Assembly (NCBI GenBank): GCA_947456815.1
Contig: CANGTL010000009.1
Location: 1 to 64,000 of the forward strand
Origin: Flavobacteriaceae bacterium
GTDB lineage: Bacteria; Bacteroidota; Bacteroidia; Flavobacteriales; Flavobacteriaceae
Direction: 5' to 3'
DNA length: 64,000 bases
Position 1 is the stretch's first letter. Every line of letters begins with the position of its first letter. Below the pieces are notes generated by a model. The model was not told the DNA's origin, searched no databases, and was given only the letters and a program-made list of their open reading frames with translations. Below are positions 1,546 through 56,484 of this stretch, one piece after another. The translations under genes were made by a program, and so were the position numbers.

Positions 1546-2889
1546 TTAAATTACGGCTTCATCCGCTATTTTTAATGCTTCACTAATAATAGCCAATCCT
1601 TCATCAATTTGGTCTTTTGTAATACACAGCGGTGGTGCTATGAAGATATAACCCCAACGCACGAAAGTATACATGCCGAGTTCCTTAATCTTCGCTGCCA
1701 CTTTATTCATTACAGCCATTTCATCAGGCTTTGCGTTGAAAGGCGCCATCGGTTCTTTCGTGTTTCTGTTTTTTACCAATTCCAAACAGCCTAGCAAGCC
1801 GGTGTTTCTCCAATCTCCTATAGAAGGATGGATTTTCTTTAAGTCTTCGATTCTACTATTGAGATACGTTTCCATGGCGCGTGTATTCTCAATAAGTTTA
1901 TCATCTTCATAAATTTTTAATGTTTCTAAAGCGGCGGCGCATGCCACTGGATGCGCTGAATAGGTCAAGCCTAAAGCCAGAACAACATCGTCATATTTGG
2001 ACGCGATTTTATCGGAAACCATTAAACAACCAAAAGGCAAATAACCACAAGTGAGTCCTTTGGCCATGCAAATCATATCTGGAATAATATCATGATTTAT
2101 GAAACCGAACCATTTCCCTGTTCGTCCAAATCCGCTCATCACCTCATCAATGATGAGAAGAATACCATGCTGATCACATAATTTTCTCACCGCCTTCAAA
2201 TAACCAACTGGATATTTCAGGCAGCCTGAGGAACCACTTTCTCCTTCTAACAGAATCGCGGCAATATTTGCGGGTCCTTCAAAAGCGATCATTCGTTCTA
2301 AACTCGCTACCGTTTCTTTCAAAAGATTCTCTTCACCGTATTCCCAGCGATAAGCAATCGGAATATCAATGTGAATAAAATTGGGTGCTTGTTGGTTGTC
2401 TACCGGCAATTTTCTCGGATCACCACTGGCAGACATCGCACCAATAGATGCACCGTGGTAGGATTGATAGCGGGTTACAATTTTATGTCTTCCTGTATAA
2501 AGTCTAGCCAATTTAATAGCATTATCGATAGACGTGGCGCCACACAAGGTAAAGAATGCTTTGTTCAAATCCCCTGGACAAATTTCAGCTAATTTCTTTC
2601 CTAAATCACCACGAACTTTAGTCACACAACTTGGCGTAACATATGATACTTGTTGCATTTGTTTGACAACAGCGTCGGTAATTCTTTGATTTCCGTGGCC
2701 AATATTGACGTTCATCAATCCGCTGCTGAAATCGATAATTCTATTGCCATCATAATCATATAAATAAACGCCCTCGGCACGCTCGATCGCAATTGGCGCA
2801 ATACCTTTTTGTTTGCTCCATGAAAACATCGTAAAATCAGAATTGTCTTGAAGTATTTGATGTGATTGTGATATGGTATCTGTATTCAT
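1546..2889 (-). CDS. Class III (PLP) aminotransferase, probably omega-amino acid/beta-alanine:pyruvate type
   Basis: 447 aa; class III motifs (YDYDGNRIIDFSSGLMNVNIGHGN; LLIIDEVMSGFGRTGKWF; MAKGLTCGYLPFGCLMV); substrate inferred from neighbours. Confidence 0.85.
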   Translation of the reverse strand: MNTDTISQSHQILQDNSDFTMFSWSKQKGIAPIAIERAEGVYLYDYDGNRIIDFSSGLMNVNIGHGNQRITDAVVKQMQQVSYVTPSCVTKVRGDLGKKLAEICPGDLNKAFFTLCGATSIDNAIKLARLYTGRHKIVTRYQSYHGASIGAMSASGDPRKLPVDNQQAPNFIHIDIPIAYRWEYGEENLLKETVASLERMIAFEGPANIAAILLEGESGSSGCLKYPVGYLKAVRKLCDQHGILLIIDEVMSGFGRTGKWFGFINHDIIPDMICMAKGLTCGYLPFGCLMVSDKIASKYDDVVLALGLTYSAHPVACAAALETLKIYEDDKLIENTRAMETYLNSRIEDLKKIHPSIGDWRNTGLLGCLELVKNRNTKEPMAPFNAKPDEMAVMNKVAAKIKELGMYTFVRWGYIFIAPPLCITKDQIDEGLAIISEALKIADEAVI

Positions 2890-2949
2890 TGTTTCTATTT
2901 TGAATTTTAAATGATCAATTTTGAATGTGTTTATAATGATTCGAATGCC

Positions 2950-3060
2950 CTAGCCCCGATTGCAGTGAAAATCCTTTTTTGTTTTACGAAAAGCCCCTCG
3001 ACTGCGCTCGGGGAGACAAAAACAAAAAAGATTGCAACGTAAAGCGGGATTAGCTCCTAA
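2950..3060 (-). repeat. Dispersed structured repeat family 1, copy A
   Basis: CTAGCCCCGATTGCAGTG...TCCTTTTTTGTTTT...AAAACAAAAAAGATTG...AGCGGGATTAGCTCCTAA; oriented AGGAGCT-end toward the upstream gene's stop. Confidence 0.8.
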
Positions 3061-3076
3061 AAAAATTAATTTCTTT

Positions 3077-4534
3077 CTAGCTCATCCAGTTGACACCGGC
3101 TTCTGCGTTCCATTTGATGGTGCTTTTCTTCAATTTCGTCCAAAACTCGATGGAGCTTTTTCCGGTGATATCGCCCACGCCAAATTTGCTTTCGTTCCAA
3201 CCGCCAAAACTAAATGGCTCACGTGGAACGGGAACACCGACATTGACTCCGATCATTCCCGCGCTTGCTTTATCGATGATGTAGCGCGCCATACCGCCGT
3301 TTTGGGTGAAAACACTTGCTGCATTTCCGTATGGATTGGCATTTTCGATGGCTAAAGCTTCATCGACCGTATTGGTTCTCATGATGGAAATTACGGGTCC
3401 GAAAATTTCTTCAGTCGCCACGCTCATTTGAGGGGTTACGAAGTCGATGACTGTTGGCCCGACATAGGTTCCGTTTTCTTTACCAGCTACTTTGGTATTT
3501 CTACCATCGACCAGAATTCTTGCGCCGTCTTTTTCTGCTTGGGTGATATAACTTTCTATTCTTTCTTGTGATTCTTTGTTGATGACCGCACCCAAATTGA
3601 CACCAGGAATAATCTTGCGTGCTTCATCGCAAATTTTAGCAACAATCGCATCTACATTTCCTACTCCAATCATCGCGGAAGCTGCCATACAACGTTGTCC
3701 GGCGCAACCAGACATTGAGGCTGCGACATTTTGTGCTGTCATTTCTGGAATCGCGTCAGGCAAGACCATCAAGTGATTTTTTGCACCGCCTAATGACAAA
3801 CATCTTTTTAGGTTTTGGGTGGCGCGTTGGTATACAATTTTTGCCACTTTGGTTGAGCCGACAAAAGAAACAGCTTCGATGTTGGGATGATCACAAATGG
3901 CGTTTACGATTTCAACATCGCCGTGAATTACGTTAAAAACGCCATCTGGCAAGCCAGCTTCTTTTAATAATTCCGCTAATCTTCCGCAACTTAAAGGCAC
4001 TTTTTCCGATGGTTTGATGATCATGCAATTTCCTAGTGCAATTGCATTTGGAATTGTCCAATTCGGCACCATGGATGGGAAATTAAAAGGAACAATAGAG
4101 GCAACAACGCCAAGCGCTACGTGTTCTGTTCTGCATTCTACTCCTTTGCTCACTTCTAGCAATTCGCCAGTAATAAGTTGAGGTAATGAAGTTGCGAATT
4201 CGGTTAATTCGATGCACTTTTCAATTTCTGCTACCGACTCTCCATAGGTTTTCCCATTTTCTTCACTGCATAATTCAGCGAGTTCTTTGAGGTGTTTTTC
4301 CAGTAAAGTTTTATATCGAAAGAAAACTTGAACGCGCTCTTTGATGGGTGTTTTGCTCCACGCTGGAAAGGCGGCTTGTGCTGCTTTGACGGCATCGTCT
4401 AGATCTTGATTTGTCGACATCGGAACGGTTGATAGTAGATTTCCGTCGAGTGGTGAAACCACGTTCATTGTTTTTGTTGTTGAACTCGGAACAAACTTTC
4501 CGTTGATGTAATTTTGAATTGCAGGGTATTTCAT
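3077..4534 (-). CDS. mmsA: CoA-acylating methylmalonate-semialdehyde dehydrogenase
   Basis: 485 aa aldehyde dehydrogenase fold; MMSDH-like sequence (MVPNWTIPNAIALGNCMIIKPSEKVPLSCGRL; GCAGQRCMAASAMIGVG). Confidence 0.9.
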   Translation of the reverse strand: MKYPAIQNYINGKFVPSSTTKTMNVVSPLDGNLLSTVPMSTNQDLDDAVKAAQAAFPAWSKTPIKERVQVFFRYKTLLEKHLKELAELCSEENGKTYGESVAEIEKCIELTEFATSLPQLITGELLEVSKGVECRTEHVALGVVASIVPFNFPSMVPNWTIPNAIALGNCMIIKPSEKVPLSCGRLAELLKEAGLPDGVFNVIHGDVEIVNAICDHPNIEAVSFVGSTKVAKIVYQRATQNLKRCLSLGGAKNHLMVLPDAIPEMTAQNVAASMSGCAGQRCMAASAMIGVGNVDAIVAKICDEARKIIPGVNLGAVINKESQERIESYITQAEKDGARILVDGRNTKVAGKENGTYVGPTVIDFVTPQMSVATEEIFGPVISIMRTNTVDEALAIENANPYGNAASVFTQNGGMARYIIDKASAGMIGVNVGVPVPREPFSFGGWNESKFGVGDITGKSSIEFWTKLKKSTIKWNAEAGVNWMS

Positions 4535-19210: not shown

Positions 19211-20185
19211 TTATTCGAATTTGACGGTGCTTCCCTTTGTAGTAACATCAACACTTACGGTTTTCCCTAATATCAAAGTGCGATTGTCTTTGATATGGCC
19301 TGCTGGGAAATTATAAATAATCGGAAACTTATAGTCTTTTAGAACATCTTGGATAATTTGTAGCGCATCTTTTCCCCACGCGATTTCATTGTCGTTCATG
19401 CTGGTCATACCGCCCACAATGACCGCTTTTACGCCGTCGAAGTAACCATTGCGTTTGAGGTTCATCATCATGCGGTCGATGTGGTATAAGTACTCGTCGA
19501 GGTCTTCAATAAACAGGATTTTTCCTTTATAATCGACTTCGGATTTGGAACCGATGATGCTGTACAGGACCGACAAGTTGCCGCCGACGATTTCACCCTT
19601 TGCCGAGCCTTTGACATTATATTCGTGGGATGAAATCGTATAAGTTAATTTTTCTCCGAACAAGGCTTTTCGAAAAGAATCTAACACTTCCGGATTAGCA
19701 GTTCCCGCATTCAACGCCATAAAAGAATGCATGGTTTCAATGCCCATATTATTGATGTGACTGTGCAACACGGTCATGTCGCTAAAACCACAGACCCATT
19801 TGGGTTTTTTCTTAAAATTGGTGAAGTCGATGCGGTCTATAATTCGAACGGTTCCGTATCCGCCTTTTGCCGCCCAGATGGCTTTTATTTTGGGATTGTC
19901 GATCATTTCTTGAAAATCGGTAGCCCGCAACCAATCTGGTCCCGCCAATTGGTTTTCTTCTTTGCCGATGGTTTTGCCAATCACCACGTGCAAGCCCCAA
20001 CTTTCGAGTAACTTAATCGCTGGTTGTAAAGAAGCTAGGTCCGCTTTTCTGGCTGTGGCGAGGATTCCGATGGTATCGCCTTTTTGTAAAAATTCGGGTG
20101 TAATCATTTTGCGTTGTGCTTGAGTGGTTTGAAATAGGAAAAGTCCAAATAAGAGGATTCGAAAAAAAGGTCTTGGATTTTTCAT
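19211..20185 (-). CDS. LD-carboxypeptidase (peptidase S66)
   Basis: 324 aa; IWAAKGGYGTVRIIDRIDF, GFSDMTVLHSHI, ILFIEDLDEYLYHIDRMMMNL. Confidence 0.92.
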   Translation of the reverse strand: MKNPRPFFRILLFGLFLFQTTQAQRKMITPEFLQKGDTIGILATARKADLASLQPAIKLLESWGLHVVIGKTIGKEENQLAGPDWLRATDFQEMIDNPKIKAIWAAKGGYGTVRIIDRIDFTNFKKKPKWVCGFSDMTVLHSHINNMGIETMHSFMALNAGTANPEVLDSFRKALFGEKLTYTISSHEYNVKGSAKGEIVGGNLSVLYSIIGSKSEVDYKGKILFIEDLDEYLYHIDRMMMNLKRNGYFDGVKAVIVGGMTSMNDNEIAWGKDALQIIQDVLKDYKFPIIYNFPAGHIKDNRTLILGKTVSVDVTTKGSTVKFE

Positions 20186-20239: not shown

Positions 20240-20266
20240 ACCATTATTAATTTGAAACGGATTGCT

Positions 20267-20345
20267 CTAGCCCCGATAGGAACGGTATCCTTTTGTGCCG
20301 GTGTTCGGCGCAAAAGATTTAGTGGATAGCGGGAACTAGCTCCTA
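20267..20345 (-). repeat. Dispersed structured repeat family 1, copy B
   Basis: CTAGCCCCGATAGGAACGGTATCCTTTTGTGCCG gtgtt CGGCGCAAAAGATTTAGTGGATAGCGGGAACTAGCTCCTAA. Confidence 0.8.
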
Positions 20346-20404: not shown

Positions 20405-22465
20405 ATGTTACAAAATCCAAAAAGATATACCATTACTGCTGCATTGCCTTATACCAACGGACCGATTCACATTGGGCATTTGGCGGGCGTTTACGTTCCT
20501 TCTGATATTTATTCGCGTTACTTGCGTTTGCTAGGAAAAGACGTGGCATTTATTTGCGGGAGCGATGAACACGGTGTTGCAATCTCGATGAAAGCCAAAA
20601 AGGAAGGAATCACGCCCCAGCAAGTCATTGATAAATATGACACCATTATTCGGAAATCATTTGTTGATTTTGGGATTTCGTTTGATAATTATTCGAGAAC
20701 TTCTTCTAAAATTCACCATGAAACGGCTTCGGCATTTTTTAAGAAATTATACGACGACGGAAAATTTATAGAAGAAGTCACTGAGCAATTGTACGACGAG
20801 AAAGCCGATCAGTTTTTGGCAGATCGATTTGTAATTGGAACTTGCCCGAAATGCGGGAATGAAGAAGCGTATGGCGATCAGTGCGAGAAATGCGGCTCGA
20901 CGTGGAATGCAACCGATTTGATCAATCCGAAATCGACTATTACAGGAACTACTCCTATTTTGAAAGCCACGAAACATTGGTTTTTGCCTTTAGATCAATA
21001 TGATGCTTTTTTAAGACAATGGATTTTGGTGGATCATGCCAAAGACTGGAAAACGAATGTCTTGGGTCAAGTAAAATCTTGGCTAGACGACGGATTGAAA
21101 CCTCGTGCAGTTACTCGCGATCTAGATTGGGGAATAGATGTGCCTGTTGAAGGTGCCGTTGGGAAAAAATTATATGTATGGTTTGACGCGCCAATTGGTT
21201 ATATTTCTTCAACCAAAGAATGGGCAGCTCATGAAGGAAAAGACTGGGAGCCATACTGGAAAAGTGAAGATACAAAGCTGGTACATTTTATAGGAAAAGA
21301 CAATATTGTTTTTCACTGCGTGATTTTTCCTGCCATGTTGAAGGCGGAAGGAAGTTATATTTTGCCTGACAATGTTCCGGCGAATGAGTTTTTGAATTTG
21401 GAAGGCAATAAATTGTCGACTTCAAAAAATTGGGCGGTTTGGTTGCATGAATATTTGGAAGATTTTCCTGGGCAGCAAGATGTGTTGCGTTATGCTTTAA
21501 CATCGAATGCGCCTGAAACCAAAGACAATGATTTTACTTGGAAAGATTTTCAAGCGAGAAATAATAATGAATTAGCTGCAATTTTCGGGAATTTTATTAA
21601 TCGTGTCGTGGTTTTGACGAATAAATACTATGATGGAATTGTGCCTCAACCAAACGCTTTTTCGGAAGTTGACGAGCAAACTTTAAAGGAACTAAAGGCT
21701 TATCCTGCGGTGATTTCAAGTTCGATTGAACGCTATCGTTTTAGAGAAGCTTTGGGCGAATTGATGAATGTAGCGCGGTTAGGCAATAAATATTTGGCGG
21801 ATGAAGAACCGTGGAAAATGGTCAAGACCGATCCGGAGAGAGTACAAACGCAAATGTATGTAGCCTTGCAAATAGCATCTGCTTTGCGTGTTTTATGTGA
21901 GCCTTTTTTACCATTTACCGCTGGGAAATTGGATGTCATTCTCAACCAGACCCACCATGGAAAAAGCTGGAGCGACGTGTCAGAACAATCCGAATTGATT
22001 GCGGTTGGACACAAAATTGGTGCGGCAGAAATCTTGTTTTCACAGATTGAAGACGAACAAATTCAGAAGCAAATTGACAAATTGGAAGCTACAAAAACTG
22101 CGAATAGTATGGAAAACAAAACGATGACGGCCCAAAAAGAATTGATCCAGTTTGAGGATTTCTCCAAAATGGATTTGCGCGTTGGAACTATTCTAGAAGC
22201 AGAGAAAATGCCGAAAGCCAATAAACTTTTGGTGTTGAAAGTAGATACAGGAATTGATGTCCGAACCATCGTGTCTGGCATTGCAGAGAGTTTTTCTCCT
22301 GAAGAAGTTGTTGGGAAAAAAGTCACAGTTTTAGTCAACTTAGCGCCTCGAAATTTGCGCGGCGTAGAAAGCCAAGGCATGATTTTGATGACGAACGATG
22401 TAGATGGAAAGTTGGTTTTTGTGAATCCAGATGCGGACGTCGAGAATGGGGAGACGATAAATTAG
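20405..22465 (+). CDS. metG: Methionine--tRNA ligase with C-terminal tRNA-binding domain
   Basis: 686 aa; [27 protein letters not shown]; zinc knuckle [24 protein letters not shown]-terminal [26 protein letters not shown]. Confidence 0.97.
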
Positions 22466-39217: not shown

Positions 39218-39871
39218 TTAAGTCAACTTTACAAAAAGATTACTTGCAATCTTATTCGAAATTACCATTTCTTTTTTATCAAGGCTAATTTTTGAAGACA
39301 AATCAAAATCTTCTTTTGAAAGCAAAGTGATCTCAGAACCTAAAGCAATCTTATTCGTATCGAGATATTTTAGAAACGCCGCTGAAGAATCTTTAACACC
39401 AACGCAAATTCCGGTTTGATGAGGTAAAAGTTCAGATAGCAACACTTTCTCGATTGCGATGATATTTCCCTCGCTGTCGGGTATAGGATCTCCGTGTGGA
39501 TCCTTATTTGGATTCCCAAGAAAACTTGCTAATTTGTTGATGAGTTGCTCCGACTTGATGTGTTCTAATTGTTCGGCTATGTCGTGTACTTCGTCCCAAG
39601 GGAAATTCAATTTTTCAACTAGAAAAACTTCCCACAAACGGTGCTTACGAACAATCATTTTGGCGGCTAGTTGCCCTTTTTCAGTCAAGGAAACGCCTTG
39701 ATATTTTTTATAATGAATCCAGTCTTTATCCGCTAGCTTCTTTAGCATGTCTGTTACCGAAGATGCTTTTGTCTCCATTTTTTCAGCAATGGCGTTGGTG
39801 CTCACTTCAGCTTCTGAAACTGCCGTAAGATGGTAGATGGTTTTGAGGTAATTTTCTTCGGATAAGGTCAT
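39218..39871 (-). CDS. DtxR/MntR family metal-dependent transcriptional regulator
   Basis: MTLSEENYLKTIYHLTAVSEAEVSTNAIAEKMETKASSVTDMLKKLADKDWIHYKKYQGVSLTEKG; FeoA-like C-terminus; ORF-track N-terminus runs into a repeat. Confidence 0.92.
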   Translation of the reverse strand: MTLSEENYLKTIYHLTAVSEAEVSTNAIAEKMETKASSVTDMLKKLADKDWIHYKKYQGVSLTEKGQLAAKMIVRKHRLWEVFLVEKLNFPWDEVHDIAEQLEHIKSEQLINKLASFLGNPNKDPHGDPIPDSEGNIIAIEKVLLSELLPHQTGICVGVKDSSAAFLKYLDTNKIALGSEITLLSKEDFDLSSKISLDKKEMVISNKIASNLFVKLT

Positions 39872-39915
39872 TTTGATTTGGGATTTTAGATTTTGGATTT
39901 GGGATTCTAAATATG
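39872..39915. repeat. AT-rich degenerate tandem repeat (GATTTGGGATTTTAGATTTTGGATTTGGGATT)
   Basis: Read directly. Confidence 0.6.
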
Positions 39916-39923
39916 ACAGAACG

Positions 39924-40032
39924 CTAGCCCTGATGGCAGTGGCATCCTTTTTTGTTCTAGAAAAAGTTAGTGGTCTACGCTCGGGCTGATAAAACAAAAA
40001 AGATAGAACGAACAGCAGGTATCAGCTCCTAA
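39924..40032 (-). repeat. Dispersed structured repeat family 1, copy C
   Basis: CTAGCCCTGATGGCAGTGGCATCCTTTTTTGTT...AACAAAAAAGATAGAACGAACAGCAGGTATCAGCTCCTAA; overlaps the Nramp stop codon. Confidence 0.8.
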
Positions 40033-41900
40033 TTTTTAATAATAAACAACGGAATTTTGATTTCGTGACGGACCTGATCAACGGTTGTCCCGAAAATCAA
40101 ATCCTTGAATGTATGATGCCCGTGTGTTCCCATAATTAGAATATCAAAATCACCTTCATTGACTATTTTTGCAATGCTTTTCCCAGGTTTTCCAAAGCCT
40201 AATTTTGAAACGACTTGGTAACCTTTTTCGGTTAACATTTGGACATATTCTAGCAACAATGCTTCGTCGATCGTGGTTTCGTGATCGCTGACATCCTTTC
40301 CGTACATCATGGCACCAACCGTTTCGACAACGTGAATCAAGGTGTAATTGGCTTCTTTTCCTCCTAAATCTATCGCATGTTGCAGCGCTTTTTCATCGGC
40401 ATTTGAGAAATCGACTGTCACGGCAATATTCTTCTTAGCATTGCTCTCAAAATGAGAAAACTTCAATGCAATAGTATGCGGAGAATGGTTATCTATAGTT
40501 GTTTTGGCTTTTGTCAACAGCGGCTTAAAGACAATATAGAGCAGTAAAATTAGAAAGCCAATCGCCAAAGGCACGACGGTTAACCATAAAATAGTTGGGT
40601 TCTCTGTTGTTTCTAACCAGCCGGTGATTTCATCGAAAACGAGTTTGGCATTTAAGGAAACAATGATACTGGCAATAATCCACGCCGCAATTTGAGTGGC
40701 TCTGCCAATGTGAAACCCATTCATTTTCGATTTGTCGCTGACGAAATGGATCAAAGGGATAATTGCAAAGCCGAGTTGCAAACTCAAAATCACTTGACTT
40801 AAGATCAGCATTTTTCCGGTCACGCTTTCGCCATAAACCAAGATCACGATTACGGCTGGAACAATCGCAATGAGTCGTGTGATGATGCGACGAACCCATG
40901 GTTGAATACGTAAATTTAAATAACCCTCCATGACGATTTGACCTGCTAAAGTCCCGGTAATCGTTGAACTTTGACCAGCTGCTATTAAGGCAACTGCAAA
41001 CAATATTGGCGCCCATTTATTGCCTAAAACCGGTTCTAAAAACCGATACGCATCTTGAATTTCGGCCACTTCATACATGCCGTTTTTATAGAATGTGGCA
41101 GCGGCTAAAATTAAGATGGCTGCATTGATAAAGAAGGCTAAGTTTAGTGCGATAGTACTATCGATGAAGTTGTATTTTAAAGCTTGCTTGATGCCAGCTT
41201 TGCTTCGGTCGAATTTTCGCGTTTGCACCAATGAGGAATGTAAGTATAAATTGTGCGGCATTACCGTTGCTCCTATTATTCCAATCGCAATATATAAAGC
41301 TGTTTCATTGGGTAGCGATGGAATCAATCCGTAGATAACTTTAGGCAATTCCGGTTGGGCAAATATCATTTCAAAAATGAAAGAAAAACCAATAATGGCG
41401 ACGAGCACAATAATGAATGCTTCCATTTTCCGCATGCCTTTATTGATTAAAAACAGCAGTAAAAAAGTATCTAAAACAGTGATTATAACGCCATCGATGA
41501 GTGAAATACCGAACAGTAAATTTAATCCAATTGCCATTCCGAGCACTTCTGCCAAATCACAAGCGGCAATCGCAATTTCTGCTAAAAAGTAGAGAATATA
41601 GTTGATGAATTTTGAATACGTTTCGCGAGAAGCTTGCGCCAAATCGCGCTGGGTTACGATTCCCAATCGAGCGCTTAAACTTTGTAAGAGCAACGCCATG
41701 ATGTTACTCATCAGTAAAACCCATAACAAAGCGTAGCCAAACTGACTTCCACCAGCGATATCGGTAGCCCAGTTTCCGGGATCCATATAGCCGACGCTAA
41801 TCAAATAGGCCGGACCAAAAAAGGCGAGAATTTTTCGAAAAACTGTTGTTTTGTTTTGAGTAGGAACCGATTGGTTTACCTCTTCTAATGATTTACTCAT
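40029..41900 (-). CDS. Nramp family divalent metal transporter fused to a C-terminal universal stress protein domain
   Basis: 623 aa; AYLISVGYMDPGNWATDIAGGSQFGY and VMPHNLYLHSSLVQTR; C-terminal KKNIAVTVDFSNADEKALQHAIDLGG...GDFDILIMGTHGHHTFKDLIFGTTVDQVRHEIKIPLFII. Confidence 0.93.
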   Translation of the reverse strand: MSKSLEEVNQSVPTQNKTTVFRKILAFFGPAYLISVGYMDPGNWATDIAGGSQFGYALLWVLLMSNIMALLLQSLSARLGIVTQRDLAQASRETYSKFINYILYFLAEIAIAACDLAEVLGMAIGLNLLFGISLIDGVIITVLDTFLLLFLINKGMRKMEAFIIVLVAIIGFSFIFEMIFAQPELPKVIYGLIPSLPNETALYIAIGIIGATVMPHNLYLHSSLVQTRKFDRSKAGIKQALKYNFIDSTIALNLAFFINAAILILAAATFYKNGMYEVAEIQDAYRFLEPVLGNKWAPILFAVALIAAGQSSTITGTLAGQIVMEGYLNLRIQPWVRRIITRLIAIVPAVIVILVYGESVTGKMLILSQVILSLQLGFAIIPLIHFVSDKSKMNGFHIGRATQIAAWIIASIIVSLNAKLVFDEITGWLETTENPTILWLTVVPLAIGFLILLLYIVFKPLLTKAKTTIDNHSPHTIALKFSHFESNAKKNIAVTVDFSNADEKALQHAIDLGGKEANYTLIHVVETVGAMMYGKDVSDHETTIDEALLLEYVQMLTEKGYQVVSKLGFGKPGKSIAKIVNEGDFDILIMGTHGHHTFKDLIFGTTVDQVRHEIKIPLFIIKN

Positions 41901-47984: not shown

Positions 47985-50276
47985 ATGGCAGCTACAAAAA
48001 ACAACCAACCAACAAAAGATCTTGCTTACTACAAAAAGAAGTTTTGGAAGATCTACTTTTATACCTTAGGTGGCATCTTTCTATTCTTCATATTTGCTTC
48101 TTGGGGATTATTTGGCTCGATGCCATCCTTTGAAGATCTTGAAAATCCAAATTCAAACCTAGCAACCGAAATCATTGCGACCGATGGAGTAACCATTGGT
48201 AAATTTTACAACGAAAACCGAACGTCGATCAAATACGCTGACTTGCCAAAACATTTAGTTGACGCATTAGTATCTACAGAAGACGAAAGGTTCTACGAAC
48301 ACTCAGGTATTGATGGTAGAAGAACATTGGGCGCGGCAATTAAATTAGGCTCCAATGGCGGCGCAAGTACTTTAACGCAACAATTAGCCAAACTGCTTTT
48401 TCATGGCGAAGGCTCGCGATTCCTTCCCTTGCGTATCATTCAAAAAGCCAAAGAATGGATTATTGCCATCAAACTCGAACGACAATACACCAAAAACGAA
48501 ATCATCGCCATGTATTTCAACAAAGCCGATTTTGTGAATACTGCCGTTGGAATCCGTTCCGCTGCCAAAGTATATTTTGGAAAAGAGCCTCGTGATCTCA
48601 CCATCGACGAAGGCGCTATGTTGGTTGGAATGCTAACCAATCCTTCGCTTTACAATCCGGTGCGTAGGTTAGAAAAAGTTCAGAAAAGAAGAAATATTGT
48701 ATTGGGTCAAATGGTTAGAAATGGCTACTTGGAAGAAAGTGCTAAGAAAATTTTAGAGAAAAAGCCCATCGTACTTCATTTTCAACCTGAAAGTCATACC
48801 GACGGTATCGGAACTTATTTCCGCGAATACCTTCGTGATTTTATGAAAAATTGGGTGAAAGAAAACAAAAAATCAGACGGCACTGAATACGACATTTACA
48901 AAGATGGACTAAAGATTTACACCACCATCGATTCCCGAATGCAGACCTACGCAGAAGAAGCGATGAAGGAACATTTGCCGAATTTACAAGAAGAATTGTC
49001 AAGTCAACAAAAGGAAAATAAAAATGCGCCTTTCGTTAATATTTCTGAGGTCGAGACCAAGAAATTGATGATGAAAGCGATGAAAAATTCCTCTCGCTGG
49101 AAGTTAATGGAAGCCCAAGACAAATCAGAAGCGGAAATTATCAAATCGTTTGGCGTCAAAACCAAAATGAAAGTTTTTACTTGGAAAGGCGAAAAAGATA
49201 CGATGATGACACCAACTGATTCTATTCGCTATTATAAAAGCTTCCTACAAGCTGGGATGATGGCAATGGAGCCGCAAACTGGACACGTCAAAGTTTGGGT
49301 AGGTGGCATCAATTACAAATATTTCCAATACGATCACGTGGGCCAAGGTGCGCGTCAAGTGGGCTCTACTTTCAAGCCGTTTGTTTACGCCACTGCCATC
49401 GAACAACTAAATATGTCGCCTTGCGATTCTATCATCGATAGCCCGTTTATGATTCATAAAGGACGCCACAACGTAACAGAAGACTGGGAACCTAAAAATT
49501 CAGACAACGAATATCGCGGCATGGTCACTTTGAAAAAAGCATTAGCCAACTCAATCAACACCGTTTCTGCAAAACTCATTGATAAAGTCGGTCCAGAAGC
49601 GGTTGTTGAACTGGTTCATAAACTAGGCGTAAAATCAGAAATTCCTGCACAACCTTCCATCGCGCTTGGCGCTGTAGAAATCACTGTTGAAGATATGGTA
49701 TCGGCTTATAGCACTTTTGCCAATGAAGGTGTTTACATCAAACCGCAATTCATCACCCGAATCGAAGATAAAAACGGCGTTGTCATTTACGAACCTTCTC
49801 CTGATTCGCATGATGTGCTTAACAAAGACATTGCGTTCGCAGTCATCAAATTGCTAGAAGGCGTTACCGAAGGTGGCTCTGGAGCGCGACTAAGAACACA
49901 AGGCGGCGGCAACGGCTACAACAGAGTAACGGGCTATCCGTATATGTTTACCAACCCGATTGCTGGAAAAACAGGTACCACGCAAAACCAATCCGACGGT
50001 TGGTTTATGGGAATGGTTCCGAATTTAGCTTGTGGCGTTTGGGTCGGTTGCGAAGATCGTTCGGCGCGTTTCAAAGGAATCACGTACGGTCAAGGTGCCA
50101 CTGCAGCGCTGCCAATCTGGGCGATGTTTATGAAAAAATGTTATAAAGATGAAACGCTGCATGTTTCTAAATCCGACTTCGAACGGCCTGCCAATCTATC
50201 TATCAAAGTCGATTGTTGGGCGCCTGTAAAAGATACCACCGATTTTGAACAAAGCACAGATGAATTTGAAATGTAA
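47985..50276 (+). CDS. Penicillin-binding protein 1A (transglycosylase/transpeptidase)
   Basis: 763 aa; EDERFYEHSGID; GGASTLTQQLAK; QVGSTFKPFVYATAIEQ; GKTGTTQNQSDGWFMG. Confidence 0.95.
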   Translation: MAATKNNQPTKDLAYYKKKFWKIYFYTLGGIFLFFIFASWGLFGSMPSFEDLENPNSNLATEIIATDGVTIGKFYNENRTSIKYADLPKHLVDALVSTEDERFYEHSGIDGRRTLGAAIKLGSNGGASTLTQQLAKLLFHGEGSRFLPLRIIQKAKEWIIAIKLERQYTKNEIIAMYFNKADFVNTAVGIRSAAKVYFGKEPRDLTIDEGAMLVGMLTNPSLYNPVRRLEKVQKRRNIVLGQMVRNGYLEESAKKILEKKPIVLHFQPESHTDGIGTYFREYLRDFMKNWVKENKKSDGTEYDIYKDGLKIYTTIDSRMQTYAEEAMKEHLPNLQEELSSQQKENKNAPFVNISEVETKKLMMKAMKNSSRWKLMEAQDKSEAEIIKSFGVKTKMKVFTWKGEKDTMMTPTDSIRYYKSFLQAGMMAMEPQTGHVKVWVGGINYKYFQYDHVGQGARQVGSTFKPFVYATAIEQLNMSPCDSIIDSPFMIHKGRHNVTEDWEPKNSDNEYRGMVTLKKALANSINTVSAKLIDKVGPEAVVELVHKLGVKSEIPAQPSIALGAVEITVEDMVSAYSTFANEGVYIKPQFITRIEDKNGVVIYEPSPDSHDVLNKDIAFAVIKLLEGVTEGGSGARLRTQGGGNGYNRVTGYPYMFTNPIAGKTGTTQNQSDGWFMGMVPNLACGVWVGCEDRSARFKGITYGQGATAALPIWAMFMKKCYKDETLHVSKSDFERPANLSIKVDCWAPVKDTTDFEQSTDEFEM

Positions 50277-50279
50277 TTT

Positions 50280-50384
50280 TTAGGAGCTTATTCCTGCTGT
50301 TCGCTGTATCTTTTTTGCTGGTTATATAAGTGTAACAAGACGTTTATTAATAGCAAAAAAGGATGCCGCTGCCATCAGGGCTAG
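50280..50384 (+). repeat. Dispersed structured repeat family 1, copy D
   Basis: TTAGGAGCTTATTCCTGCTGTTCGCTGTATCTTTTTTGCT...AGCAAAAAAGGATGCCGCTGCCATCAGGGCTAG; begins 4 nt after the PBP1A stop. Confidence 0.85.
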
Positions 50385-50451
50385 GAAATCCAACAACCAT
50401 CAACATAAAACTAAACTTTGCGCCTTAGAGCCTTAGTGGCAAAAAAACAAT

Positions 50452-51153
50452 ATGATTAACAAAAAAGTAAACTCAGTACAAGAAGCAGTAAACGGAATCG
50501 AAAACGGCATGACACTCATGCTTGGCGGATTCGGTCTTTGCGGCATTCCAGAAAATGCAATCGCCGAATTGGTGAAAAAAGGCACCAAAAGCCTGACCTG
50601 TATTTCCAATAACGCCGGTGTTGATGATTTCGGTTTAGGCTTATTGCTTCAAAAAAAACAAATCAAAAAAATGATTTCTTCTTACGTAGGAGAAAATGCA
50701 GAATTTGAACGTCAAATGCTCTCGGGTGAACTCGACGTTGAACTCATCCCGCAAGGAACTTTAGCCGAACGTTGCCGCGCGGCTCAAGCCGGAATCCCCG
50801 CTTTCTATACACCAGCCGGATACGGAACTGAAGTCGCTGAAGGAAAAGAATCTCGCGAATTCAATGGCAAAATGCACATCATGGAACACGCTTTCAAAGC
50901 TGATTTCGCCATCGTAAAAGCCTGGAAAGGTGACGAAGCAGGCAATTTGGTGTTCAAAGGAACGGCAAGAAATTTCAATCCGTGTATGTGTGGAGCGGGA
51001 AAAATTACGATTGCTGAAGTTGAAGAATTGGTTCCTGTTGGTACACTCGATCCCAATCAAGTGCACATTCCCGGAATCTTGATTCAACGTATTTTTCAAG
51101 GAGAAAAATTCGAAAAACGAATCGAGCAACGTACAACACGAAAAAGAGAATAG
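50452..51153 (+). CDS. CoA transferase subunit A (3-oxoacid/succinyl-CoA transferase)
   Basis: 233 aa; [61 protein letters not shown]. Confidence 0.95.
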
Positions 51154-56231: not shown

Positions 56232-56292
56232 GGTGTAAATGTAAAAATACTTCGCCACAAAGACGCAAAGGCGCAAAGAAAATCGGATGCGT

Positions 56293-56429
56293 TTTTGCCC
56301 CGACAGCAGTGGCATCCTTTTGTTCTGGCGTTCAGAACAAAAGATTACCTCACAAGGTTAATATTTTAATTTGTGTTCGGTCAATTCGCTGCGCTCGGGT
56401 GTAACGTATGGCGGGACCCGAGCTCCTGA
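56293..56429 (-). repeat. Dispersed structured repeat family 1, copy E
   Basis: CCCCGACAGCAGTGGCATCCTTTTGTTCTGgcgttCAGAACAAAAGATT...TATGGCGGGACCCGAGCTCCTGAA. Confidence 0.75.
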
Positions 56430-56460: not shown

Positions 56461-56484
56461 CCTTCGACTGCGCTCAGGATGACA
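56461..56484. repeat. Mini-repeat CCTTCGACTGCGCTCAGGATGACA; related copy nested in repeat copy A at 2994-3018
   Basis: Near-identical TCGACTGCGCTC core, both hairpin-forming. Confidence 0.6.

Follow-up and report, generated by a model that had tools for sequence, protein, structure and literature searches.

Flavo-1 hairpins of a Flavobacteriaceae genome form a strand-specific intergenic repeat family whose copies appear to be replaced in place

Flavo-1 shares features with several families of bacterial DNA repeats and recombination sites. ERIC and BOX repeats are intergenic imperfect palindromes of about 100 bp that have no coding capacity and carry insertions in their centre, and we know of no mobiliser for them. 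The same can be said of the Flavo-1 elements studied here, with the proviso that the likeness is one of general description, and that in Flavo-1 one copy seems to take the place of another when close relatives are compared. The attC sites of integrons, which are recognised as a single strand folded with some bases unpaired and capped by a variable loop, can be likened to Flavo-1, but no attC core boxes were seen in the Flavo-1 consensus and no gene-cassette context was seen. Like Flavo-1, the REP sequences associated with TnpAREP (PMC8266576) are imperfect hairpins present in many intergenic copies; both have a tetranucleotide 5' of the stem, mismatches that are conserved, and strand specificity. 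Yet Flavo-1 is two to three times longer, no Y1 transposase was detected in the genome, and its tetranucleotide is YTAG instead of GTAG (a G occupies the first position in 4% of the copies, so that the consensus does not match that of REP). It also differs from MITEs by the absence of a target-site duplication and from intrinsic terminators by the absence of a T tract after the stem.

The five hairpins found in the window, i.e., the whole stretch of 64,000 nucleotides that was analysed, are copies of Flavo-1 (Rfam RF01705), a high-copy intergenic repeat of flavobacteria described by Weinberg et al. in 2010 (PMC2864571). The full-length model matches, and the fold and the taxa are identical to those of the copies found here. 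The first-pass annotation had listed five copies, all of which are present (Table 1), and had pointed to similar elements in Flavobacterium; this was right, since these elements are Flavo-1, and the element in the window is thus not an undescribed one. Four of the five copies score between 61.8 and 74.0 bits with the covariance model (gathering score, 42). The fifth, copy E, falls below this score owing to an interrupted 3' arm: its inner hairpin is complete, but about 50 additional bases with a palindromic stretch split the arm after GATTA. The copies run past the Rfam model at both ends, with a weak 5' box, TTTGAAAacGAATGCCC, which is also present in other species, and a conserved CTCCTAAA at the 3' end. 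Our search for literature on flavobacterial palindromic repeats returned nothing of relevance.

Table 1. Copies of Flavo-1 in the window, with neighbouring genes named by Pfam.
Feature	Position	Strand	RF01705 match	Score (bits)	Neighbouring genes
Copy A	2942..3064	+	2948-3055	71.9 (own model, 89.5)	aminotransferase, 1546..2889 (-); aldehyde dehydrogenase, 3077..4534 (-)
Copy B, short loop	20259..20350	+	20265-20340	74.0	LD-carboxypeptidase, 19211..20185 (-); metG, 20405..22465 (+)
Copy C	39916..40036	+	39922-40026	61.8	MntR/DtxR-type regulator, 39218..39997 (-); Nramp-type transporter, 40029..41900 (-)
Copy D	50276..50392	-	50286-50386 (minus strand)	69.2	PBP1A-type, 47985..50276 (+); CoA-transferase subunit A (scoA-like), 50452..51153 (+)
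Copy E, damaged	56286..56429	+	56292-56422	36.7 (E 1.9e-6)	

The family is abundant well beyond the window. The 2.69-Mb genome has 145 matches to RF01705, of which 142 are above the gathering score, and the same covariance-model search gave no match in 14 control genomes, so that the family is far more frequent than chance would allow. G150 and G115, both at about 90% identity to this genome, have 145 and 142 matches, respectively. Most of the congeners examined have tens of copies and a few have none or one. The latter include the Flavobacterium genomes G018, G020, and G024, while others carry well over a hundred; such poor congeners beside rich ones could be useful for finding a partner gene.

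The Rfam strand forms one long hairpin, starting with the unpaired YTAG and ending with AGCTCCTAAA. The outer stem is made of short runs of Watson-Crick pairs interrupted by conserved G.A positions. Inward of it come one C in a bulge, an inner hairpin rich in T and A, and a loop that can be replaced. We aligned 106 copies of this genome to a model of our own (R1) and found standard pairs in 95.0% of the cells, against 78.3% in shuffles. The covariation score was 0.43, compared with 0.14 in shuffles (0 of 500) and 0.04 to 0.13 when the arms were slid, and 18 of the 22 pairs change on both sides. Loss of pairing among copies elsewhere in the genome had been named in advance as the outcome that would tell against a structured element; the pairing is kept across the 106 copies. 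The central arms vary and yet pair, and the outer arms are shared, as the first-pass annotation proposed, but the compensatory changes, which it described for the central stem, occur outside that stem too. At the outer-arm pair 16/223, for example, we counted CG 42, TA 40, GC 12, and AT 11 times, with not a single G.T or A.C among 105 copies. The broader proposal of the first-pass annotation, that the hairpins covary and that selection or a mechanism of propagation acts on them, is supported by these pair statistics and by the replacement data given below.

The covariation of the outer arms was not foreseen, nor was a fold made specific to one strand by conserved G.A mismatches. Four purine mismatches (A18.G221, G21.A218, A23.G216, and G26.A213) are kept in at least 96% of the copies on each side, while G.A and A.G alternate at position 28/211. 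Of 102 copies, 80 fold more stably on the Rfam strand than on the complementary one when RNA parameters are used, and 94 do so with DNA parameters. G.T pairs outnumber A.C pairs by 29 to 9 in the copies of this genome and by 20 to 8 in orthologs, and this excess is found in the inner hairpin only; in the outer arms of the orthologs at the scoA site the two are equally rare (four each). The share of G.U is 1.4% in the outer arms and reaches 3.6% for the element as a whole; the SRP RNA of the same genomes, a small control with few variable pairs, has 7.7%.

The copies are almost exclusively intergenic (102 of 106, with simple gene calls) and show no preference for a class of gap: they occupy 62 of 268 codirectional, 19 of 76 divergent, and 11 of 57 convergent gaps. 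Such similar occupancy is unlike what one finds for a terminator or a leader. The orientation of the element is not wholly neutral, since the structured strand is antisense in 44 and sense in 21 of the copies between codirectional genes. The 3' end often adjoins a stop codon, which its reverse complement TTAG can provide, as in the Nramp-type transporter gene next to copy C. TAnnTTTG motifs are enriched 30 to 90 bases outside the element, pointing away from it on both sides, and one lies between copy B and metG; the scan of the surroundings for this motif pointed to no promoter of the element's own and to no enrichment peculiar to the structured strand. Neither did we find a strand bias between replichores in the complete genome G010 (25 of 55, assuming the origin at dnaA, with an unclear skew) or a target-site duplication (flank direct repeats of 3.66, against 3.76 in shuffled pairings). 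The two ends of the element show no more than a short YYTAG/CTAAA correspondence.

The comparison of relatives locus by locus, which involved few and mostly fragmented genomes, suggested an unexpected mode of change. Among the shared sites examined, the orientation is kept in 31 of 33 cases and inverted in two, and three copies of relatives have no counterpart in this genome. We ranked the occupants in relatives by their similarity to the 106 copies of this genome, and not to possible donors within the relative, in the 31 same-orientation comparisons; these are not all independent, as a few relatives could contribute to the same site. The positional counterpart was among the top three in 12 comparisons (mean identity, 0.89), and it ranked below the 20th in 15. 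In these 15, the occupant had a mean identity of 0.61 to its positional counterpart and of 0.86 to the best other copy, with adjoining 40-base flanks that were 0.70 and 0.76 identical (0.56 for unrelated flanks). The site at 50280 is a case in point: this genome and G115 have a common version (0.86, rank 1), and G150, which is 91% identical around the site, has another subfamily (0.57, rank 72), with flanks conserved right to the edges of the element. Hence, about half of the shared sites have a non-orthologous occupant in the same orientation between similar flanks, as would be seen if one copy were frequently overwritten by another without a change of site. Such a swap could introduce several two-sided "compensatory" changes in one step, and many of the two-sided differences between orthologous sites may thus be whole-copy replacements instead of stepwise compensation. 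Copy exchange leaves the kept mismatches and the pairing unexplained, and selection on the folded strand is still needed to account for them.

Some sites have been occupied for a long time. Nine other metG loci, that of F. psychrophilum among them, have the element immediately upstream of the promoter motif, and relics of it are found in two. The gap between the PBP1A and scoA-like genes has Flavo-1 in the same orientation in 29 of 29 related loci (the best matches to the query, a set that stops short of the more distant congeners), with inner stems and loops that differ strongly among them. In contrast to these old sites, others differ by the presence or absence of the element: the Nramp/MntR gap has it in 6 of 24 syntenic loci. 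The site of copy A was traced over a short range, its neighbours being common to few congeners. Since one site stayed occupied in every relative examined, some sites probably matter to the host too, and the PBP1A/scoA-like gap is a natural place to test such a function.

In view of these observations, we favour the reading that Flavo-1 is a DNA-level, strand-specific intergenic hairpin repeat whose copies are kept alike by non-allelic conversion, and not a gene for a small RNA, a reading to which we would give an even chance. Non-allelic gene conversion between dispersed copies, with the orientation kept, would be the simplest mechanism of exchange; alternatively, a recombinase might swap the copies. 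A putative factor acting in trans could recognise the folded single strand and in this way keep the hairpin intact, and two-sided changes would come in together because whole copies are exchanged. A more specific version, in which a dedicated system of replacement ("swap, not jump") that keeps the orientation depends on a factor recognising the folded single strand, is tentative and on balance improbable. If it were true, part of the published covariation would be a product of copy exchange. The identity of the element was known, but we have not seen descriptions of the in-place replacement or of the case for a DNA-level role of its strand-specific fold. Flavo-1 has been known since 2010 as an abundant structured element of flavobacteria. 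Should its copies replace each other in place, covariation between them would speak less strongly for an RNA function than has been assumed, its Rfam type ("Gene; sRNA") would lead annotation astray, and complete genomes of closely related strains would offer a way to test the matter.

One must count against a DNA-level role that the strict conservation of the G.A mismatches and the excess of G.T over A.C also fit an RNA. A serious rival, even if we regard it as unlikely, is a cis element acting at the level of RNA, i.e., a hairpin within transcripts, on one or both strands, that would affect mRNA stability, processing, or the uncoupling of neighbour genes. The conserved G.A mismatch loops and the excess of G.T over A.C on one strand would be expected of it. 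The long-term occupancy between PBP1A and scoA also fits, as does the presence of an unrelated strong hairpin (z of -3.5 to -11.5) in 11 of the 18 syntenic Nramp/MntR loci devoid of Flavo-1, as if any hairpin could serve. However, the structured strand is mainly antisense to codirectional neighbours, divergent gaps are occupied as often as the others, G.U is low, and the promoter motif between copy B and metG places this element outside the 5' UTR. Furthermore, in the transcriptome of F. psychrophilum, Flavo-1 matches are sense or antisense to transcribed regions and many lie outside any such region (PMC9723704). The latter observation also weighs against the independent small RNA gene implied by the Rfam type, which the strand-specific fold would suit, but which we consider highly improbable given some 145 copies and promoter motifs that are not enriched for the structured strand in particular.

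Among the DNA-level alternatives, the hairpins could be sites serving the host, bound by a nucleoid, topoisomerase, or repair protein in a role comparable to that of the BIMEs of Escherichia coli. Their intergenic, high-copy, and class-neutral distribution and the long preservation of some sites make this conceivable. Yet copy numbers vary widely, down to none or one in the poor congeners, and a protein binding the duplex has no need for strand-specific mismatches; we regard this explanation as rather unlikely. Mobilisation of a REP-like element by a Y1 (TnpAREP/RAYT) transposase is suggested by the likeness to REP (PMC8266576) of an imperfect hairpin that comes immediately after YTAG and keeps its mismatches. 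This idea is much weakened and now very unlikely: Y1_Tnp (PF01797) gave no match in this genome (completeness, 91.6%) or in G004, G011, G012, and G016, four further genomes with Flavo-1, and G018 and G024 present nearly the reverse situation. The tetranucleotide is not GTAG and there is no replichore strand bias. We rejected a Y1 transposase as the mobiliser, since it does not co-occur with Flavo-1 among the genomes compared. Finally, a long hairpin near many stop codons could evoke a bidirectional terminator, but this is the least probable of the explanations and is not supported: in the consensus the stem is not followed by a T tract, whichever strand is read, there is no terminator-like site at copy B, and convergent gaps are not enriched relative to divergent ones.

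The loop deserves separate mention. That of copy A contains a second palindrome, CCCCTCGACTGCGCTCGGGGAGACA. In the part of the genome sequence that was sampled, Flavo-1 loops contained 34 of the 46 REP-like palindromes (TCGACTGCGCTCGG type), two of them flipped relative to the other 32, which suggests that the loop carries a second palindromic module travelling with a subfamily of Flavo-1. The palindrome CCCCTCGACTGCGCTCGGGGTGACA was found at positions 2990-3030 of the window and in 33 other Flavo-1 loops, with copies outside the element at, e.g., position 56464 of the window and 5808 of L116.

Other observations concern individual loci. The Nramp/MntR gap, which has Flavo-1 in other species, is filled by several unrelated families of palindromic repeats (CTGAGTTGCTAAG/CTTAGCAACTCAG, CTCTGTCAGGGTT, and ACAAAGGGACAAAG types) in L278-L300. 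In two gaps a close relative has a Flavo-1 of another subfamily in the opposite orientation (L121 1192-1284 compared with L215 and L214, and L121 9286-9376 compared with L205); a CTAGGGCCCTAG junction in the latter gap points to the remains of a copy arranged head to head. The split of the 3' arm after GATTA(C) by 40 to 60 extra bases was observed in the window (56292-56429), L034 (9774-9924), and L182 (2771-2910), at different sites of different genomes, with extra bases that include TACCTCACAA and further on TTGTGTTCGGTCAGTTCGCT in two of them; insertion may have recurred at this point, or the three may belong to a composite subfamily. An extra small ORF (MYTFSFEKLEVWKNSREFIIKIYDL...) adjoins Flavo-1 at about 1350-1750 of L121, where the gap of G115 and G150 has the element alone, and by eye its product resembles S23/four-helix-bundle proteins.
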